Below are positions 9,691-18,780 of a DNA stretch of 64,000 nt, piece after piece. Position 1 is the first letter of the stretch; the number at the start of each line of letters is the position of its first letter. The stretch is from Erythrobacteraceae bacterium (GTDB taxonomy: Bacteria > Pseudomonadota > Alphaproteobacteria > Sphingomonadales > Sphingomonadaceae). Location of the stretch: assembly GCA_027489065.1 (NCBI GenBank), contig JAIYAM010000035.1:1-64000 (forward strand). The letters are read 5' to 3'. Made by a program: the position numbers and the translations under genes. The notes under the pieces were generated by a model. It worked only from the letters and a program-made list of their open reading frames with translations. It searched no databases and had not been told where the DNA came from.

Positions 9691-10302
9691 TCAACACAGC
9701 GCCCGTTCGCGCGCGATCATTGCGGCATGGGTGCGGTTTCTCGCGGCCAGCTTGCGGCAGATCGTCTTGACGTGGAGCTTGATCGTCGGCTCGCGCAGGT
9801 TGAGCTCGCGCGCGATCTCCTTGTTCGCCTGGCCAGAGCACAGCCGCGTCAGCACTTCGACCTCGCGGGGGCTCAGCCCCGAAGGTGCCGGCGCCGGGCT
9901 TTGCGAGGGGCGGTGCAGGTCGAGCGGCATGTAGGTCTCGCCTGCCGCCATGAAGCGGATCGCGTTGACCAGCGAGCGCGCGGGCAGCGTCTTGGGCAGG
10001 TAGCCCGCCGCGCCTGCGCCGAGCACCTTGTCCGCGACCCCCGGCGGGGCAAGGCCCGACATCAGCGCGACCGGCTTGCCCTTGCCGGCCGCAATCGCCT
10101 GCTCCAGCCCGGCATAGCCATCCATCCCCGGCATCCCGTAATCGAGCACCACCAGATCATAGGGCGTCTCTGCCGCAGCCATGCTCGCGAGCGCCTCGTG
10201 GAGGTCGGCGACCAGATCGACCGTGAAGCCGCCCTCGGCCTCGAGGAAGGAGCGCAGCACGTCGCGCAGCAATTCGTGGTCGTCGGCAATCAGGATACGC
10301 AT
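9691..10302 (-). CDS. LuxR/NarL-type response regulator
   Basis: REC domain (MRILIADDHELL...VVLDYGMPGMDG) plus LuxR HTH (LSPREVEVLTRLCSGQANKEIARELNL); ORF track start extends it artificially. Confidence 0.93.
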   Translation of the reverse strand: MRILIADDHELLRDVLRSFLEAEGGFTVDLVADLHEALASMAAAETPYDLVVLDYGMPGMDGYAGLEQAIAAGKGKPVALMSGLAPPGVADKVLGAGAAGYLPKTLPARSLVNAIRFMAAGETYMPLDLHRPSQSPAPAPSGLSPREVEVLTRLCSGQANKEIARELNLREPTIKLHVKTICRKLAARNRTHAAMIARERALC

Positions 10303-12788
10303 GCAGTGGTCCTCTCTCGCGCAGCGTCGATCGCGGACGCGGCGGCAGCGGCGAGCTGCGCGGTGCCGGCAGGCTTGCCGAGCACCCCGTCGAACAGCCC
10401 GACCTGTTTCTGATGGAGCTGGTGGATGCGCGGGAGCGCGGTGAGCAGCAGGATCGGCAGGTCCGGGCGCAGCTTGCGCAGCCGGCGCGCAAAATCTGCG
10501 CCGTTCATGCCGGGCATGTCGTAATCGGTGACCACAAGGTCCCACAGGCCCGGATCGTCCCTGATCGCGGTGATCGCGTCGCGCGGGTCGAGGCAGGGGC
10601 CGGGCTCGGCGCCGACCTCCTCGAGCATCGCCACGAGGGTGTCGACCACCGCCGGGTTGTCGTCGACCACCAGCACGGTCTTGCCGGTCAGCGCGGCATT
10701 GAGATCGAACCCGTCGCCCTGCATCGCCCCGTCGCCGGCCTCGGCCTGGAGCGGCCACCACACCTCGAAGATCGTGCCCACGCCGGGCCAGCTCTGGATG
10801 GTCAGCGCGCCGTTGTTACCCGCGATGATCCCGGAGACGACCGCGAGGCCCAGCCCGGTTCCGGCCTCACCCTTGCGGGTGAAGAAGGGCTCGAACACCT
10901 TGCCCAGCTCCTCGGGCTCGATGCCGCAGCCGGTATCGCTGATGCGGATCAGGACGGACGGCACCTTGGGGATGGCGCCGATCACCAGCCTGCCTTCGGG
11001 CACCTGCCACTCGGCGGGAATGACCTCGAGACGGATCCGTCCGGTCTCGGCGGGTCGCAGCGCGTCGCGCGCGTTGAGCACGAGGTTGAGCAGCACCTGA
11101 TTGAGCTCGGTATCGTCGGTCAGCACCATCACCGGCGAACTCGGCACGGAAAGCTCGATGCGGTGGAGCGGATCGGTAAGGGCGGGCGCGGCGAGATCGC
11201 GCACGTCGCGCACCATGCGGGTGAGATCGACGAGCTTGGGATGCGGCACCCGGCGTCCGAGGGTCAGCATCTTCTCGACCAGCCGCGCCGCGGTCGCCGC
11301 TGCCGACTGGATGCGCAAGGCATGATGCGCCACGCGCTGGTCGTTCAGATTGCGGAGCAGTTCGGCGGTGCCGGAAATGGCGGTGATGAGATTGTTGAAA
11401 TCGTGGGCGATCCCGCTCGCCAGCTGGCCGACCACCTCCTGCCGCTGGGCGAGCATCAGCTGTTCGCGAAGGCGCGCCTTCTCGCGTTCCATCGCCCGCC
11501 GGTCTCCCATGTCGCGGGTGACGCAGACGATGCCGTTCTCGGGGCTGAGCGAGAGGGCGATTTCCTGTTCGACCGGGCTGCCGTCGCGCCGCAACCCTTG
11601 CGTCTCGCCGCGCCATTGCCCTTGCGCGAAGAGGATCGGCATGGCGTCCTGCGAGAGGCGCTGCGCCTCGTCCGCATCGTAGAGCACGCTCCACGGCTTT
11701 CCAATCAGCGCCTCGGGGCTGTCATAGCCGAACATCGCCGCGTGGGCGTGGTTCATGAAGATGAAGGCGCCGTCCGCGTCGGTGATCGCGATCCCGTCGT
11801 CCGAGGCCTCGACCGCAGCGAGGTGCCGGGCGAGCCGTGCCTCGGTGGCGGCGCGTTCGGCCTCGGCGGCCCTGCGGGCCGACACATCGCGGATGATCGC
11901 GGCAAAGCCCTCAGGCGCGTTGCCGGCCGCGCCAGCCGCTTCGCCGACGCTGACGCCCTCGCCCTCGCCGGTCCACATGGCAAGGCTGAGTTCGATCGGG
12001 ATTTCGCGCCCGTCCTTGGCGAGCGCGGGGACCTCGACCGTGGTGCCGACCAGCTTCGAAGGCTGGCGGTCGCGCATCCGCGCCACGCCCGCATGGTGCC
12101 CGTGGCGGTGACGGCCCGGAATGATGAGATCGAGCGACTGGCCGATTGCCTCCTCGGCGGTCCAGCCGAACAGCCTCTCGGCCGCGCGGTTCCAGAGCGT
12201 GATGCGGCTGTGCGCATCGGCGCAGACGATCGCATCGCTGGTGGTGCGCCCGATGAGGTCGGCGATGCGCCGCTCCTGCCGGATCTGGCGGCCTTCAAGG
12301 AAGGTGACGACCTGGTTCGCCATCAGCGCGAGGATCGCGCGGTCGTGCTGCGACATCGCCTGGCGCGGCGCGGGGTCGATGACGCACAGCGTGCCGACGC
12401 GGTGCCCGTTGGCAAGGATCAGCGGCGCGCCCGCGTAGAAGCGGATGTGCGGCTCGCCCGTCACCAGCGGGTTTTCGGCAAAGCGCGGGTCGGCGTGCGC
12501 ATCGGGCACCACCATCACGCCCTCGCCCGCGATCGTGTGGGTGCAGAAGCTTTGACTGCGGCAGGTGTGCGTCGCGGCGAGGCCGAAGCGCGACTTGAAC
12601 CACTGCCGCTCGGAATCGACGAGGCTGACGAGCGCGATCTGCGCGTCGAAGCGATCCGCCGCAAGCCGCGTGATGACGTCGAGTTCGGCGTCCGCCGGCG
12701 TGTCGAGCACATCCAGCGCCCGCAGCGCGGCGATCCGTCCGGGCTCGTCTTTTCCCAAGGGGTAAGGCGGGTTGTGGTTCGTGGACAT
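10290..12788 (-). CDS. Hybrid sensor histidine kinase (GAF, PAS, PAS, HisKA, HATPase, REC)
   Basis: GAF N-terminus, GIAHDFNNLITAISG phosphoacceptor region, DTGCGIEPEELGKVFEPFFTRK, C-terminal REC VLVVDDNPAVVDTL; 13-bp overlap with the downstream regulator. Confidence 0.93.
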   Translation of the reverse strand: MSTNHNPPYPLGKDEPGRIAALRALDVLDTPADAELDVITRLAADRFDAQIALVSLVDSERQWFKSRFGLAATHTCRSQSFCTHTIAGEGVMVVPDAHADPRFAENPLVTGEPHIRFYAGAPLILANGHRVGTLCVIDPAPRQAMSQHDRAILALMANQVVTFLEGRQIRQERRIADLIGRTTSDAIVCADAHSRITLWNRAAERLFGWTAEEAIGQSLDLIIPGRHRHGHHAGVARMRDRQPSKLVGTTVEVPALAKDGREIPIELSLAMWTGEGEGVSVGEAAGAAGNAPEGFAAIIRDVSARRAAEAERAATEARLARHLAAVEASDDGIAITDADGAFIFMNHAHAAMFGYDSPEALIGKPWSVLYDADEAQRLSQDAMPILFAQGQWRGETQGLRRDGSPVEQEIALSLSPENGIVCVTRDMGDRRAMEREKARLREQLMLAQRQEVVGQLASGIAHDFNNLITAISGTAELLRNLNDQRVAHHALRIQSAAATAARLVEKMLTLGRRVPHPKLVDLTRMVRDVRDLAAPALTDPLHRIELSVPSSPVMVLTDDTELNQVLLNLVLNARDALRPAETGRIRLEVIPAEWQVPEGRLVIGAIPKVPSVLIRISDTGCGIEPEELGKVFEPFFTRKGEAGTGLGLAVVSGIIAGNNGALTIQSWPGVGTIFEVWWPLQAEAGDGAMQGDGFDLNAALTGKTVLVVDDNPAVVDTLVAMLEEVGAEPGPCLDPRDAITAIRDDPGLWDLVVTDYDMPGMNGADFARRLRKLRPDLPILLLTALPRIHQLHQKQVGLFDGVLGKPAGTAQLAAAAASAIDAARERTTACVS

Positions 12789-13103
12789 GGTCGGCGGACT
12801 TCTCTTTCAGGGGACGCGTGGTTGCCGGGAGAGGGGCAAGCCTGCCCGTCCCACGCGTGTCCTGCTGGCGCAATCCGACCTTATGGCGAGGAAGTCTTAT
12901 CCTTTCGTATAGGTTGCCCTCTCCCTCCGGCGTTTTTGCTAGCCCTGCGGGCGCCCGCGTTAACCCCAAAGCGGCGCCGCGCCATCCTTCCGCCGCGCCG
13001 ACTATCCCCCCGCTCGAATGACAGGCTAGGTCCGGCCCGGCATTGGGGCTGGGCCACGGCAGAACTCGCCGCTGGAATTGACCAGACCAAAAGGACCAAT
13101 GAT

Positions 13104-13604
13104 ATGAACAAGATGTTTGCAGTTGCCGGCGTGTTCGCGTCGCTCGCTATCGCCACTTCGGCTCAGGCTGCCGAAATCCCGACCGCCGATGCCGGCGCCG
13201 GTGCCAAGATCGTCGCCCCGCTCGAAATCAGCAACGTCGCCGACCTCTACTTCGGCACGATCGCTCCTTCGACGACCGTCGCCGACCAGGTCGTCGTGAC
13301 CGCTGGCGGCGAGCGCAAGTGCGGCCCGGCCGTGACCTGCCTGACCGCCGACCACACCGCGGCGGCCTTCAAGGTGACCGGCGAAGCCAACGCTTTCTAC
13401 ACCGTCTCGCTCCCCAAGGCGATCAAGATCGTCAACGAGAACGGCAACGCCATGCTCGTGTCCGACTTCTCGGGCTCGAAGGACAAGGGCCAGCTCATCA
13501 AGGGTGAAGACAGCTTCACCGTCGGCGGCACGCTCGACGTGGGCGTCCGTCAGGAAGCCGGCAAGTACACCGGTAGCTTCACCGTCGCGGTGGAATACCA
13601 GTAA
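13104..13604 (+). CDS. DUF4402 domain-containing secreted protein (putative surface/fimbrial subunit)
   Basis: Signal peptide, PLEISNVADLYFGTIAPSTT and GTLDVGVRQEAGKYTGSFTVAVEYQ typical of DUF4402. Confidence 0.82.
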   Translation: MNKMFAVAGVFASLAIATSAQAAEIPTADAGAGAKIVAPLEISNVADLYFGTIAPSTTVADQVVVTAGGERKCGPAVTCLTADHTAAAFKVTGEANAFYTVSLPKAIKIVNENGNAMLVSDFSGSKDKGQLIKGEDSFTVGGTLDVGVRQEAGKYTGSFTVAVEYQ

Positions 13605-13626
13605 GCCCTCCGTGGCAGGGGGAGAA

Positions 13627-13672
13627 GGGAGCCGCGCACCCCCAAGCGCGGCTCCCCGATCCCGATTTTTTT
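13627..13672 (+). terminator. Strong hairpin plus T-tract between the DUF4402 gene and the chaperone gene (terminator, attenuator or mRNA-stabilising stem)
   Basis: GGGAGCCGCGC (13627-13637) / GCGCGGCTCCC (13646-13656) perfect 11-bp stem, 8-nt loop, T7 at 13666-13672. Confidence 0.65.
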
Positions 13673-13749
13673 GCTGCCCTACCGCTTCGCTACTTGAGGG
13701 CGTTCCAGCCCCACCCAAGACCACCCCTGCCAATGTGAGGTCTTCCCCC

Positions 13750-14583
13750 ATGCCCCGTTTCCCCCTCGTCGCCGCGCTGATCGCGGCGATCGCCACCCCT
13801 TTGCCTGCCGCCGCCGAGCTGCTCGTCGCCCCGACCCGCGTCGTGCTCAGCCCCAATAACCGCTCCTCCGAGCTGGTGCTCGTCAACAAGGGCAGCGAAA
13901 CCGCCGCCTTCCGCATCAGCATCGAGAACCGCCGGATGCGCGAGGACGGCAGCCTCGAGGACGCCCCCAACGCCGAGGCCGGCGAGCTCTTCGCCGACGA
14001 CAAGCTGCGCTATTCGCCGCGCCAGCTGGTGCTCGAACCCGGCGCGCGCCAGGTCGTGCGCATCATGACGACCTCGCCCGGCGACCTCGCTCCAGGCGAA
14101 TACCGCTCGCACCTGCGCCTCATGTCCGCCCCCGTCAGTGCGGGGACCACCCAGGTCGCAGGCCAGGCGCCGACCGACAACAGCCTCTCGATCGAACTCG
14201 TCGCGATCCGCTCGATCACCATCCCCGTGATCCTGCGCGTGGGCAAGCTCGAGGCGAGCGTCACCATGGACGACGCCGCGATTGCCAAGGACGCGCCCGA
14301 CCAGCTGGTGCTGCGCCTGACCCGCTCGGGCACCCGCTCGACCTATGGCGACGTCAGCTTCACGCCCGAGGGCGCCAAGGAGCCCGTCTGGGTGGTGCGC
14401 GGCGTTGCCATCTACACGCCGAACACCGCGCGCGACGTGGTCATTCCGCTGCCCCCCGAAGTGCGCAAGGCGCTCGCCGGCAAGCAGGTGCGGATCGACT
14501 ACATCTCGACCGACGCCGCGGTCGGTGCGGGCGATCCGGCCAGCGCCGGCAAGCGCCTCGCCACCCTGACCGCGGGCCTCTGA
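13750..14583 (+). CDS. PapD-like periplasmic chaperone (fimbria/pilus assembly)
   Basis: ELLVAPTRVVLSPNNRSSELVLVNKGSETAAFRISI ... SPRQLVLEPGARQVVRI. Confidence 0.85.
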   Translation: MPRFPLVAALIAAIATPLPAAAELLVAPTRVVLSPNNRSSELVLVNKGSETAAFRISIENRRMREDGSLEDAPNAEAGELFADDKLRYSPRQLVLEPGARQVVRIMTTSPGDLAPGEYRSHLRLMSAPVSAGTTQVAGQAPTDNSLSIELVAIRSITIPVILRVGKLEASVTMDDAAIAKDAPDQLVLRLTRSGTRSTYGDVSFTPEGAKEPVWVVRGVAIYTPNTARDVVIPLPPEVRKALAGKQVRIDYISTDAAVGAGDPASAGKRLATLTAGL

Positions 14584-14617
14584 CCGACGCCGCCGTCCGC
14601 CGCGCAGGTCCTCGCCC

Positions 14618-17218
14618 ATGCCCCGCCCCTCGTCCCGGCCCCGCCGCTGGCTGGCCCTGCTGTGCGCCCTCGCGGCGGCGACAGGGCCTGCCCCGGCGCA
14701 GGCGCAGGATGCCGGAGACAATGGCGGCGTGTTCGACCGCCTGTTCGGCAATGACCCGGCCGCCGAGCGGGCGGGCAAGGCGGCCGACGGCCTCGCGCTC
14801 CCCGCGCTGGTCGCCGATCGCCGGGTGATCGCAGAGGCCCTGCCGCTCCACGACCTGGGCGCCGCGGGCGGCGCCTGCGTCGCGATCCTCCCGCTGCTCG
14901 ATGCGCTGGAGATCGCCCACACCGACGAGGCCGGGGCGATCATTCTCACCCTCCCCGAACCGCGCCGCAAGGTGACCATCCCCGCGGCCGCCGTGCTGCC
15001 GAGCCCGAGCGGCCTGTGCCTGCCGCTGGCCGATGTGCCCGCCTACCTCCCCCTCTCGCTGACCCATGATGCCGTCAGCCAGCGCCTGATCCTCGCCGCC
15101 ACCGCCGCGCTGCCTGTCCTGATGCGGCTGGAGCGCGAGGAGCGCGCAGCGCGGCTCCACCCCGAAACCCTGCGCCCCGCCTTCGCGCTGCTGCCCCGCC
15201 CGAAGCACGCCGCCGAACTGTGGAGCGCCGATCTCGCCGCAGGAATTGGCCTCACCTCGCAGGGCCGCCAGATGTCGGCCGCGATGCTGGCGAGCGGCGG
15301 GTTGTTCGGCCTTGCCGGACGCTTCGGCCTTGCGGTCACGAACGCCGGCCAGCTCACCCCCGGCTTCACCCTGTCCGAGGCGCGCGACACCCCCGACCTC
15401 CTCGGGCCGCTGAAGGCGCGCAGCCTCGCGATCGGCGACATCGCCGCCCCTGCCCAGCCGCTGATCGCCGACAGCCTTTCGGGGCGCGGACTCGTGATCT
15501 CCAGCCGCGCGCCGTGGCGGGCAGACCTCGTCGATACCATCACCCTGACCGGCCCCCTCCCGCAAGGCTGGGAGGCCGAGCTGTGGCACGAGGACAGCCT
15601 CGTCGCCGTCACCCGCGAGGCGGACGCCGCGGGCCAGTGGCAGTTCGGCGACGTGCCGCTCAGGATCGGCGCGAACCGCTGGGTGGTGCGCCTCTACGGC
15701 CCCAATGGCGAGACCGAGGAACAGGTGTTCACGCGCCTCGTCGGCACCGAGATGAACGCCGAGAACGAGGTCGGCTTCACCTTCGGCTTCGTCGACGGCG
15801 GCCGCCCGCTGATGGGCAAGGCGCTCGCCGCGGAGCCCGCCGGGCCGAGCGCCTTTGCCAGCATCGACTACGGCCTCGCGTCCGACGTCACCGCACGGCT
15901 CGACCTGCGGGCGGGGATGACCGGCCAGCCCACCGTGGCGCTCGGCTTCAACGGGTCGCTCGGCGGCGGGCTGTGGGCGGTGACCGGCGCACGCGACCGC
16001 GAGGGCGGGCTGGCCGCGGCGATGAAGCTTGCCCGGCGGATCGGCGCACAGGACGTGACCTTCGACCTTGCCCGTCATGGCCGCGACACCGGCCCCGGCG
16101 TGCCGCCGCTGGTGCGCGAGTTCGCCAGCGTCATGGCGGTGAGCGGACAGGGCCGCATCGGCCTGGGGCGCCTCAGCCTGCCCTGGCAGGCGCGCTACCA
16201 GACCGGCGAATTGCGCAGCGGCAACACCCGCCAGATCGCAGCTGCGCGGCTGGTCTTCCCGATGCCCGACTGGCAGGCCAACTTTGCTTTGGGCGGGGTG
16301 CGCGAGGGCGGCGACGGCTGGCTCCCCACCGCCGCGCTGGGCGTGAGCGCGCGCCACGGCGACTGGCGGCTGCGGAGCGGCATCACCGCATCCTCACGCG
16401 ACAAGTGGCGGATCGACGGCGCCAACCTCAGCGCCGCGCGGCGGGTCGGCGGATCGGGCAACCTCGCGCTCGATCTCGACTGGCAGGCGCAGAGCGGGCG
16501 CGTGGGCGGCGGGGTGACCTATGCCCGCCAGATCGGCCCGCTCGGCCTCAGCGCCACGGCGGGGCGTGACGGCTCGGGCCTGCGCGCCGGGATCGGCCTC
16601 ACCATCGGGCTGTTCCGGGGCCCCGACCGCTGGCGCACCGCGCCCTCGGGGGTCGCCCGCAGCGGTGCGATCATGGCCGACATGTTCGTCGACGAGGACG
16701 GTGACGGGACGCGCGATGCGGACGAGGCCGGAGTTGCAGGCGGACGCTTCATCGTCGGCGCTTCGCTGCGGCGCGAGGAAACCGACGAAGGGGGCCGCGT
16801 GCTGATCGGCGGGATCGCTCCCGGCCCTTCGACCGATATGGAGACGCAGATGTCCTCGCTCACCGACTTCACCTTGCGCCCCGCCCGCCCGGGCGACCGC
16901 CTGGCCCTGCGCCCCGGCGAGGTCCGCCATGTCGCCGTGCCCCTGCGCCCCACGGGCAGCATCGAGGTGCAGGTGGTGCTCGTCGCCGGTGACCAGCGCA
17001 CCCCGCGCTCGGGCGTGCCGGTGGTGCTGCGCGACACGGCAGGCAAGGAGGCGGCGCGCGCGGTCACCGATTTCGAGGGCTTCGTGCTGTTCGAAGGCCT
17101 GCCCTTCGGCACCTACCAAGCCGAGGCGGCGGGGCAGTCCTCGGCGGCGCTCACCGTCTCTCGGGAGCGGTCGGATCAGGCCGCCAAACTGCTGATCGCG
17201 CCTGCTTCGGGCAGCTAA
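14618..17218 (+). CDS. Divergent usher-like outer-membrane protein with C-terminal beta-sandwich domains
   Basis: Signal peptide, long alternating beta-barrel-like segment, DEDGDGTRDADEAGVAGG linker, C-terminal Cna-B-like GVPVVLRDTAGKEAARAVTDFEGFVLFEGLPFGTY; downstream of a PapD-like chaperone. Confidence 0.65.
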   Translation: MPRPSSRPRRWLALLCALAAATGPAPAQAQDAGDNGGVFDRLFGNDPAAERAGKAADGLALPALVADRRVIAEALPLHDLGAAGGACVAILPLLDALEIAHTDEAGAIILTLPEPRRKVTIPAAAVLPSPSGLCLPLADVPAYLPLSLTHDAVSQRLILAATAALPVLMRLEREERAARLHPETLRPAFALLPRPKHAAELWSADLAAGIGLTSQGRQMSAAMLASGGLFGLAGRFGLAVTNAGQLTPGFTLSEARDTPDLLGPLKARSLAIGDIAAPAQPLIADSLSGRGLVISSRAPWRADLVDTITLTGPLPQGWEAELWHEDSLVAVTREADAAGQWQFGDVPLRIGANRWVVRLYGPNGETEEQVFTRLVGTEMNAENEVGFTFGFVDGGRPLMGKALAAEPAGPSAFASIDYGLASDVTARLDLRAGMTGQPTVALGFNGSLGGGLWAVTGARDREGGLAAAMKLARRIGAQDVTFDLARHGRDTGPGVPPLVREFASVMAVSGQGRIGLGRLSLPWQARYQTGELRSGNTRQIAAARLVFPMPDWQANFALGGVREGGDGWLPTAALGVSARHGDWRLRSGITASSRDKWRIDGANLSAARRVGGSGNLALDLDWQAQSGRVGGGVTYARQIGPLGLSATAGRDGSGLRAGIGLTIGLFRGPDRWRTAPSGVARSGAIMADMFVDEDGDGTRDADEAGVAGGRFIVGASLRREETDEGGRVLIGGIAPGPSTDMETQMSSLTDFTLRPARPGDRLALRPGEVRHVAVPLRPTGSIEVQVVLVAGDQRTPRSGVPVVLRDTAGKEAARAVTDFEGFVLFEGLPFGTYQAEAAGQSSAALTVSRERSDQAAKLLIAPASGS

Positions 17219-17286: not shown

Positions 17287-18780
17287 ATGACGGCACGGAT
17301 CGAGATCGGACGCGACCACCAGAGCGGGCAGGCGATCGGCATCGACCTGGCCGAGCTCCTCGCCACGCGCCTGCTGGTGCAGGGCAATTCGGGCTCGGGC
17401 AAATCGCACCTCCTGCGCCGCCTGCTGGAGGAATGCGCGGGCGCAGTCCAACAGATCGTGATCGATCCCGAGGGCGATTTCGTGACCCTCGCCGACGCCT
17501 TCGGCCATGTGGTGATCGACGCGGCGGCCTATTCCCCGCGCGAGATCGAGGCGCTGGCCCTGCGCGTGCGTCAGCACCGCGCCTCGGTGGTGCTGGCGCT
17601 GGACGAGCTCGAGGTCGAGCAGCAGATCCGATGCGCCGCGCTGTTCCTCACCGCCCTGTTCGATGCCCCGCGCGAGCATTGGTACCCCGCGCTGGTGGTG
17701 GTCGACGAGGCGCAGATGTTCGCGCCTGCCGCGGCGGGCGAGATGAACGACGAGGTGCGCAGGCTGACGCTGGCCGCGATGACCAACCTGATGTGCCGGG
17801 GGAGAAAGCGCGGGCTGGCGGGAATTGTCGCCACGCAGCGGCTGGCCAAGCTCGCCAAGAATGTCGCGGCCGAGGCCAGCAACTTCCTGATGGGGCGCAC
17901 TTTTCTCGACATCGACATGCAGCGCGCCGCCGATCTTCTCGGCATGGACCGGCGGCAGGCGGAGCGGATTCGCGATCTCCAGCGCGGGCAGTTCCTCGGC
18001 CTCGGCCCGGCGATTTCGCGGCGGCCCGTGGCGGTCAATGTCGGCGCGGTGCGGACTGCCGGGCGCGGCGGCGGTCAGGGGTTGATCCCGCTTCCCGAAG
18101 CTGCCGAGGGCGCGATGGAGGCGCTGCTGACCGAGCGGCTTGCCGAAGCCGCCGCCGCGCCTCAGCCAGCGCGCCGCCCGGCCCCGCCGCCGGTCCCCAA
18201 GGCCGCCGTGGAGGACGCGATCGCTCACGCCCCCGTGCTGCCGGAGGTCGTTCCTACCGCCGAGGCTCCTCCGGCGCGCTCTCCCGCCCCTCCCCCGCCC
18301 GTCACGCCTCCTGCGGCCCCTTCCCCTTCGGGCGGCCCCGAGGACGTGGTGCGCGAACTGGCGCTGGCCGAGGGCGCGACCTTCCGTCCGGCGGCGGCGC
18401 TGTTCCGTGACTTCGCGGTGCTCTGCCGGCAGCGCGGCATTGCCTCGGCGCATGTCGATCTCGCGCGTTTCCGCCGCCTTTTCGCGTTCGCAATCAGCGG
18501 CTTGGACCGCATCGAAGACACCGCTCGCAGCGCCATCCAGCGGGCGGCAGAGGGGCTCGAGGAGGACCTGCTCGCCCCCTATCTCGCGATCCTCATCGCC
18601 GCCCACACCGGCCACCCCATGCCGGACGAGGAGGAGCTGGGCCGCCTCTACGGCAGCGCTTCCCCGAGCCGGGTTCGGCGGCTGCTCGACCATCTCGAAC
18701 GGCTGGGCCGGATCGTGGTGCGCGAGGAGTTCGGCGGGGAGCGGACGATCACCGTTCCGGCGATACCGGCGGCGGCGTGA
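17287..18780 (+). CDS. HerA/FtsK-superfamily-like ATP-binding protein
   Basis: Walker A QGNSGSGKSHLLRR, Walker B ALVVVDEAQMFAP, RGRKRGLAGIVATQRLAKLAKNV. Confidence 0.85.
   Translation: MTARIEIGRDHQSGQAIGIDLAELLATRLLVQGNSGSGKSHLLRRLLEECAGAVQQIVIDPEGDFVTLADAFGHVVIDAAAYSPREIEALALRVRQHRASVVLALDELEVEQQIRCAALFLTALFDAPREHWYPALVVVDEAQMFAPAAAGEMNDEVRRLTLAAMTNLMCRGRKRGLAGIVATQRLAKLAKNVAAEASNFLMGRTFLDIDMQRAADLLGMDRRQAERIRDLQRGQFLGLGPAISRRPVAVNVGAVRTAGRGGGQGLIPLPEAAEGAMEALLTERLAEAAAAPQPARRPAPPPVPKAAVEDAIAHAPVLPEVVPTAEAPPARSPAPPPPVTPPAAPSPSGGPEDVVRELALAEGATFRPAAALFRDFAVLCRQRGIASAHVDLARFRRLFAFAISGLDRIEDTARSAIQRAAEGLEEDLLAPYLAILIAAHTGHPMPDEEELGRLYGSASPSRVRRLLDHLERLGRIVVREEFGGERTITVPAIPAAA

Follow-up and report, generated by a model that had tools for sequence, protein, structure and literature searches.

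Three consecutive genes on the forward strand of a 64,000-nucleotide (nt) stretch of DNA from an Erythrobacteraceae bacterium (contig JAIYAM010000035.1, positions 1 to 64,000; hereafter the window) very probably constitute a minimal pilus system of the chaperone-usher (CU) type, belonging to a non-classical branch that has had no name so far, a reading to which we assign a probability of roughly 0.88. They encode a pilin subunit of the DUF4402 family (13104..13604), a PapD-like periplasmic chaperone of a non-classical type with 277 amino acids (13750..14583), and a divergent outer-membrane usher of 866 amino acids (14618..17218), each preceded by a signal peptide that can be recognized by eye. 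A first-pass annotation made from the sequence had described the same three genes, on the same strand and at 13104-17218, as a secretion locus for a simple surface polymer; this interpretation is supported by our data and largely holds. What is reported below on folds and families, on hallmark residues, on gene order and linkage, and on the hairpin and the motif was computed in this study.

Usher, pilin and chaperone

Sequence-only searches with the 866-residue protein (Pfam, NCBIfam, PHROGs, and the PDB by phmmer as well as by a profile built from 18 relatives) yielded no usher match; its sole Pfam matches are to SdrD_B/CarboxypepD_reg at the C-terminus (residues 796-855). The classical usher domains PF00577, PapC_N and PapC_C, all three of which were matched by the control protein FimD, were not detected in it, nor were TcfC (PF16967) and CooC_C (PF15976), both of which were matched by the control EcpC of E. 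coli. None of 18 members of the usher family that were scanned matched PF00577, TcfC or CooC_C. The protein had been called divergent and devoid of a classical FimD signature in the first pass, and this was correct, since no Pfam usher model matches it.

The AlphaFold2 (AF2) model of this protein (75 aligned sequences; mean pLDDT 84.4) predicts 24 barrel strands, an immunoglobulin (Ig)-like plug inserted after strand 6 and before strand 7, and two sandwiches at the C-terminus. FimD and PapC share this layout, in which a plug at that point interrupts a 24-strand barrel. As modeled, an N-terminal alpha/beta periplasmic domain without a Pfam PapC_N match (residues 57-180; 14786..15157) precedes barrel strands 1-6 (residues 199-295; 15212..15502), the plug (residues 304-375; 15527..15742), strands 7-24 (residues 385-667; 15770..16618) and the two beta-sandwich domains (residues 683-763 and 769-860; 16664..17197), the second of which contains the SdrD_B/CarboxypepD_reg match. 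The plug, delimited by the model and by the family alignment, is the most conserved part of the usher family (G..EL.....DG.Y.F..V....N....LYGP.G). When the model was compared with the PDB by Foldseek, the top 18 matches were all FimD or PapC, with E-values from 1.5e-29 (FimD, 3rfz_B) to 2.2e-12. Support independent of the AF2 model came from hhalign, by which the usher family aligned with classical plus archaic ushers (P 96.8, E 2.2e-10, 525 columns) and with sphingomonad ushers that match PF00577 weakly (P 97.5, E 8e-12), while reversed alignments and unrelated membrane proteins, used as negative controls, gave P values of at most 1.7. Judged by its predicted structure, the 866-residue protein is an usher with the layout of FimD; the barrel-like alternation and the C-terminal sandwich domains noticed by eye in the first pass are borne out by the model, and structure prediction for 14618-17218 did return an usher-type barrel (AF2, Foldseek).

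Three other assignments of this protein were rejected. An EcpC-type usher, which the first-pass annotation had considered, is unsupported: neither TcfC nor CooC_C occurs in the family, and hhalign against the single EcpC sequence gave a probability of only 1-6%. An SdrD/MSCRAMM adhesin would account for only the last ~60 residues, the remainder being barrel, and a TonB-receptor-like barrel received a P of at most 1.4 in hhalign.

The product of the first gene is a small secreted DUF4402 protein, as had been read from the sequence before (166 residues; PF14352, E 3.6e-31). It possesses a signal peptide (residues ~1-22), a donor-strand-like N-terminal extension (residues ~27-42) and a C-terminus with glycine at position -14 and tyrosine at position -2, followed by a terminal glutamine. 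PF14352 is its only Pfam match, so that SCPU (PF05229) is not matched. The first 17 Foldseek matches of its AF2 model (pLDDT 89.6) were all CU pilins (probability 1.00-0.75), headed by strand-complemented Caf1 and including CfaB, CsuA/B and FimF, which are likewise donor-strand-complemented pilins. Tyr -2 is present in 118 and Gly -14 in 112 of 130 DUF4402 relatives; both residues occur in each of the eight classical subunits of E. coli that were examined and are absent from EcpA. Along the N-terminal strand, hydrophobic residues occupy positions 28, 30, 32, 34, and 36 in 75-94% of the aligned rows and the odd positions 27-35 in 0-4%, an alternation of the mature N-terminus that would be expected of a donor strand. 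The CU-pilin fold of the model and the C-terminal pilin hallmark point to a donor-strand pilin, in keeping with the first-pass reading. In four multi-subunit clusters of relatives (L039, L040, L042, L043), the DUF4402-like gene farthest from the chaperone gene encodes a protein without the Tyr -2/Gly -14 tail, possibly a subunit that forms the tip or ends the chain.

In classical chaperones, two basic residues of domain 1 hold the carboxylate of the pilin; archaic and alternative chaperones employ Arg89, in strand F of domain 1, plus a tyrosine and an arginine of domain 2, and a single proline is invariant throughout CU chaperones (PMC4654587). The chaperone encoded in the window matches PapD_N weakly (17.1 bits; Pfam cut-off 23). 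Its profile aligned by hhalign with the FimC family (P 91.4, E 9e-7; reversed control, P 0.5). We counted residue conservation over 101 chaperone sequences: P90, the CU-invariant proline, is conserved in 99% of them, and R119, which aligns with Arg89 of EcpB and is the counterpart of Arg89 in CsuC/EcpB, in 98%. R30, an R8-like arginine, is 98% conserved in the family as well; because this arginine is also present in two archaic loci that were aligned, it is not decisive as a class marker on its own. A counterpart of the classical Lys112 is absent from the family in the residue alignment. The conserved residues Y222, R192, and R228 lie near the Tyr196/Arg174 anchor positions of CsuC, with a register offset of 1-2 residues that makes their placement uncertain. 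The match to the FimC family and the invariant P90 uphold the earlier designation as a PapD-like chaperone.

The gene order DUF4402-chaperone-usher recurs in 97 loci (fetched loci with complete context, each with at least one DUF4402 gene), and the three-gene arrangement is therefore not due to chance. The window clade and most other lineages carry one DUF4402 gene per locus, other lineages two to five; for the locus in the window, the first-pass statement of one likely subunit gene without an adhesin is correct. The genome from which the window derives contains a single DUF4402 gene (next match, E 0.01) and a single usher of the DUF4402-system family. A PF00577 usher was not found in this genome, nor was an SCPU (PF05229) pilin, in a search that had no positive control.

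Assembly pathway and competing readings

Donor-strand exchange, secretion, fiber formation, a homopolymeric product and regulation are projected here from the CU pathway. The DUF4402 pilin would enter the periplasm via Sec as an incomplete Ig fold and be capped by the G1 strand of the PapD-like chaperone, whose Arg119, like Arg89 of CsuC/EcpB, would hold the C-terminal carboxylate of the pilin. The N-terminal domain of the usher would then receive the chaperone-pilin complex, the N-terminal strand of the next pilin would displace the chaperone strand by donor-strand exchange, and the growing chain would leave through the 24-strand pore once the plug moves. Since the genome has a single DUF4402 gene and a single usher of this kind, and no further pilin was detected in it, a thin homopolymer is the most likely product, by analogy with the Caf1 system.

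Several points weigh against this reading of the locus. The PapD_N score of the chaperone lies under the Pfam cut-off, its assignment being drawn from hhalign and residue conservation; the TM-scores of the usher model to FimD are about 0.5-0.58, depending on the target; and the E-values of the DUF4402 fold matches are marginal (best, 3.4e-3), though every leading match is a CU pilin. A homopolymer is not proven, as the genome could encode subunits of further families that escaped detection. Binding of the chaperone by the N-terminal domain of the usher is extrapolated from the CU pathway, and the surface fiber itself is inferred.

The hallmarks of the CU pathway were found together in the predicted proteins: the barrel, plug and sandwiches of the usher, a chaperone with the invariant proline, and a pilin with the appropriate fold, extension and tail. 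Compared with the named classes, the locus lacks the Pfam usher domains and the Lys112 of classical systems but has their Tyr -2/Gly -14 pilin tail; it lacks the SCPU pilin of archaic systems and the TcfC/CooC_C usher domains of alternative systems but has the chaperone Arg89 that these two share. We assign it as a variant of CU pili because it fails the tests for the classical, archaic and alternative classes while sharing single hallmarks with each of them. In an unrooted maximum-likelihood tree, the ushers of DUF4402 systems form one side of a long branch with 100/99 support, on the other side of which fall the classical, archaic, weak-PF00577 and EcpC ushers; given the long branches and the lack of a root, this shows distinctness, not rank. 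A further group of ushers matches PF00577 only just (20-48 bits; L148-L157, from Sphingomonadales genomes G001, G003, G005, G014, G017-G020, G031, and G036), is accompanied by SCPU- or Fimbrial-like subunits, makes up a supported clade of its own in the tree and is likewise under-annotated.

Tentatively, and at somewhat less than even odds, we regard the DUF4402 pilins with their classical-type tail, the chaperones that combine Arg8-like and Arg89-like anchor residues and the profile-invisible ushers as a fourth CU branch beside the classical, archaic and alternative ones, centered on Alphaproteobacteria and with members in Beta- and Gammaproteobacteria. Its most serious competitor, a rather unlikely one in our estimate, is that the locus is a diverged archaic (sigma) system of the CU class already named, with DUF4402 as a diverged SCPU pilin. 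The DUF4402 profile does match SCPU pilins weakly (E 6e-5), the chaperone Arg89 is a hallmark common to archaic and alternative systems (PMC4654587), and a wide occurrence of archaic systems in all proteobacteria has been described (PMC10104325). However, the 100/99-supported long branch sets the ushers apart from archaic, classical and weak-PF00577 ushers alike, the 18 members scanned are devoid of PF00577, TcfC and CooC_C matches, the DUF4402 pilin ends in the classical Tyr -2/Gly -14 motif, and SCPU was not found in the genome by the uncontrolled search mentioned above.

That the usher homolog serves to secrete or anchor DUF4402 as a monomeric surface protein, with no fiber being formed, seems improbable to us. 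It would suit the window in having only a single small subunit gene and lacking an adhesin, but it leaves aside the C-terminal motif and the alternating N-terminal extension of the pilin, the retention of the plug and C-terminal domains of a polymerizing usher, and the use of the same machinery by relatives with 2-5 pilin genes. Decay of the locus, without any product in the strain represented by the window, is suggested by in-frame stops in the usher genes of two relatives (G031, L059), but can hardly be reconciled with three open frames in the window, about 75 intact relatives, and an usher that is 81% identical to its nearest relative and has kept the conserved residues.

Expression signals and distribution

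A new observation is that single-subunit loci have a conserved hairpin 3' of the pilin gene. In the window it occupies 13627..13672 on the forward strand, within the gap between the pilin and chaperone genes, and resembles a terminator or attenuator: an 11-bp GC stem with an 8-nt loop is followed by a run of seven T residues that starts nine nt past the stem. The whole pilin-chaperone intergenic RNA has a fold z-score of -4.6. Of 78 single-subunit loci, 65 had a stem of at least 10 bp 3' of the pilin gene, as had 8 of 19 multi-subunit loci (shuffled mean, 1.6 over all 97 loci); none of these loci had such a stem after the usher gene. A generic promoter/terminator scan of the locus listed nothing; it missed the hairpin because the T-run begins so far from the stem, and the hairpin was assessed by direct folding and family comparison. 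Most relatives of the window clade have retained the stem without the T-run, and stabilization or processing of the RNA is therefore as possible as attenuation. The element would probably keep the pilin in excess over the chaperone and usher.

Also new is a divergent pair of regulatory genes, together with a unique 15-bp motif, in the window clade. Pfam matches and linkage identify a hybrid sensor kinase (GAF-PAS-PAS-HisKA-HATPase-REC; 10290..12788, reverse strand) and a LuxR-type response regulator (REC-GerE; 9691..10302, reverse strand). The kinase gene adjoins the pilus genes in every window-clade locus listed, while the gene downstream of the usher varies. The motif TATCCTTTCGTATAG (12898..12912), a candidate operator in the divergent intergenic region, is conserved across the window clade and occurs once in the 3.38-Mb genome even when one mismatch is allowed. 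From linkage and sequence, the LuxR-type protein is the probable regulator of the pilus operon, and the kinase and regulator would probably switch this operon through binding of the regulator at 12898-12912. Directly 3' of the usher gene lies a gene for a HerA-like ATPase (17287-18780); as it is kept in only a few close relatives, it is probably not part of the pilus system.

Usher homologs were detected in 17 of 61 genomes searched (the own genome and its relatives) and, class-wide, in 28 of 387 genomes from about 20 families; 16 of the 17 alphaproteobacterial genomes with a DUF4402 match also possess the usher family. One conserved usher peptide alone retrieved 522 candidate relatives from the GTDB collection, and all but a few of the 80 that were fetched carry Sphingomonadales names. 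Searches across the phylum and in a plasmid collection added Polaromonas (Betaproteobacteria) and Pseudoalteromonas (Gammaproteobacteria; partial match). In Sphingopyxis indica and Novosphingobium sp. ES2-1 (L192, L195), the DUF4402-chaperone-usher cassette resides on plasmids of a type classed as conjugative. The nearest relative (G017:C179, L031) harbors a second, partial usher at a contig end that is ~37% identical to that in the window. A single frame at L057:6473-9175 joins chaperone domain 1 to an usher from about profile position 122, without chaperone domain 2 and the usher N-terminus, and is either a real fusion or a metagenome assembly error. The interrupted usher genes mentioned above (L059:6995-9616; G031, locus L005) are possible pseudogenes.

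The names given to these proteins in RefSeq are uninformative: 'DUF4402 domain-containing protein', 'molecular chaperone', and 'carboxypeptidase regulatory-like domain-containing protein' or 'hypothetical protein'. In the literature searched, we found no paper mentioning DUF4402 and none linking Novosphingobium with chaperone-usher systems. Our analysis proposes a function for DUF4402 and for hundreds of 'carboxypeptidase regulatory-like' or 'hypothetical' proteins in sphingomonads and other proteobacteria, and shows that PF00577-based surveys of ushers overlook a whole branch. With only three genes, one pilin and a chaperone whose anchor is mixed, the system would also offer a simple case in which to test how classical and non-classical pathways differ in carboxylate anchoring and donor-strand exchange.

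Relation to known chaperone-usher systems

With the archaic systems (Csu, CupE; SCPU pilins), the locus shares the Arg89-type carboxylate anchor, a pilin-chaperone-usher machinery and a wide occurrence in proteobacteria. It differs from them in that its pilin is DUF4402 and not SCPU, its usher escapes PF00577, and it has a single pilin, which keeps the classical Tyr -2/Gly -14 tail, and no two-domain tip adhesin. The alternative systems (ECP, CFA/I) likewise have an Arg89-type chaperone, and a CarboxypepD_reg-like C-terminal usher domain also scores in EcpC; however, the usher in the window has neither TcfC nor CooC_C, EcpA is without Tyr -2/Gly -14, and the locus has no EcpD-like adhesin.

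The Caf1 (F1 antigen) system, a classical one of the FGL type, consists of one pilin, one chaperone and one usher and produces a homopolymer. It resembles the locus in this composition, and Caf1 is the best fold match of the DUF4402 model, but the chaperone in the window lacks the classical Lys112-type residue and has the non-classical arginine, and the ushers are unrelated at the Pfam level. The FimC/FimD machinery of the type 1 pilus differs in that identity is only ~11%, PF00577, PapC_N and PapC_C are missing from the usher in the window, and the locus has no separate genes for a tip fibrillum; nevertheless, the predicted 24-strand barrel, the plug between strands 6 and 7, the two C-terminal sandwiches and the pilin tail are common to both.

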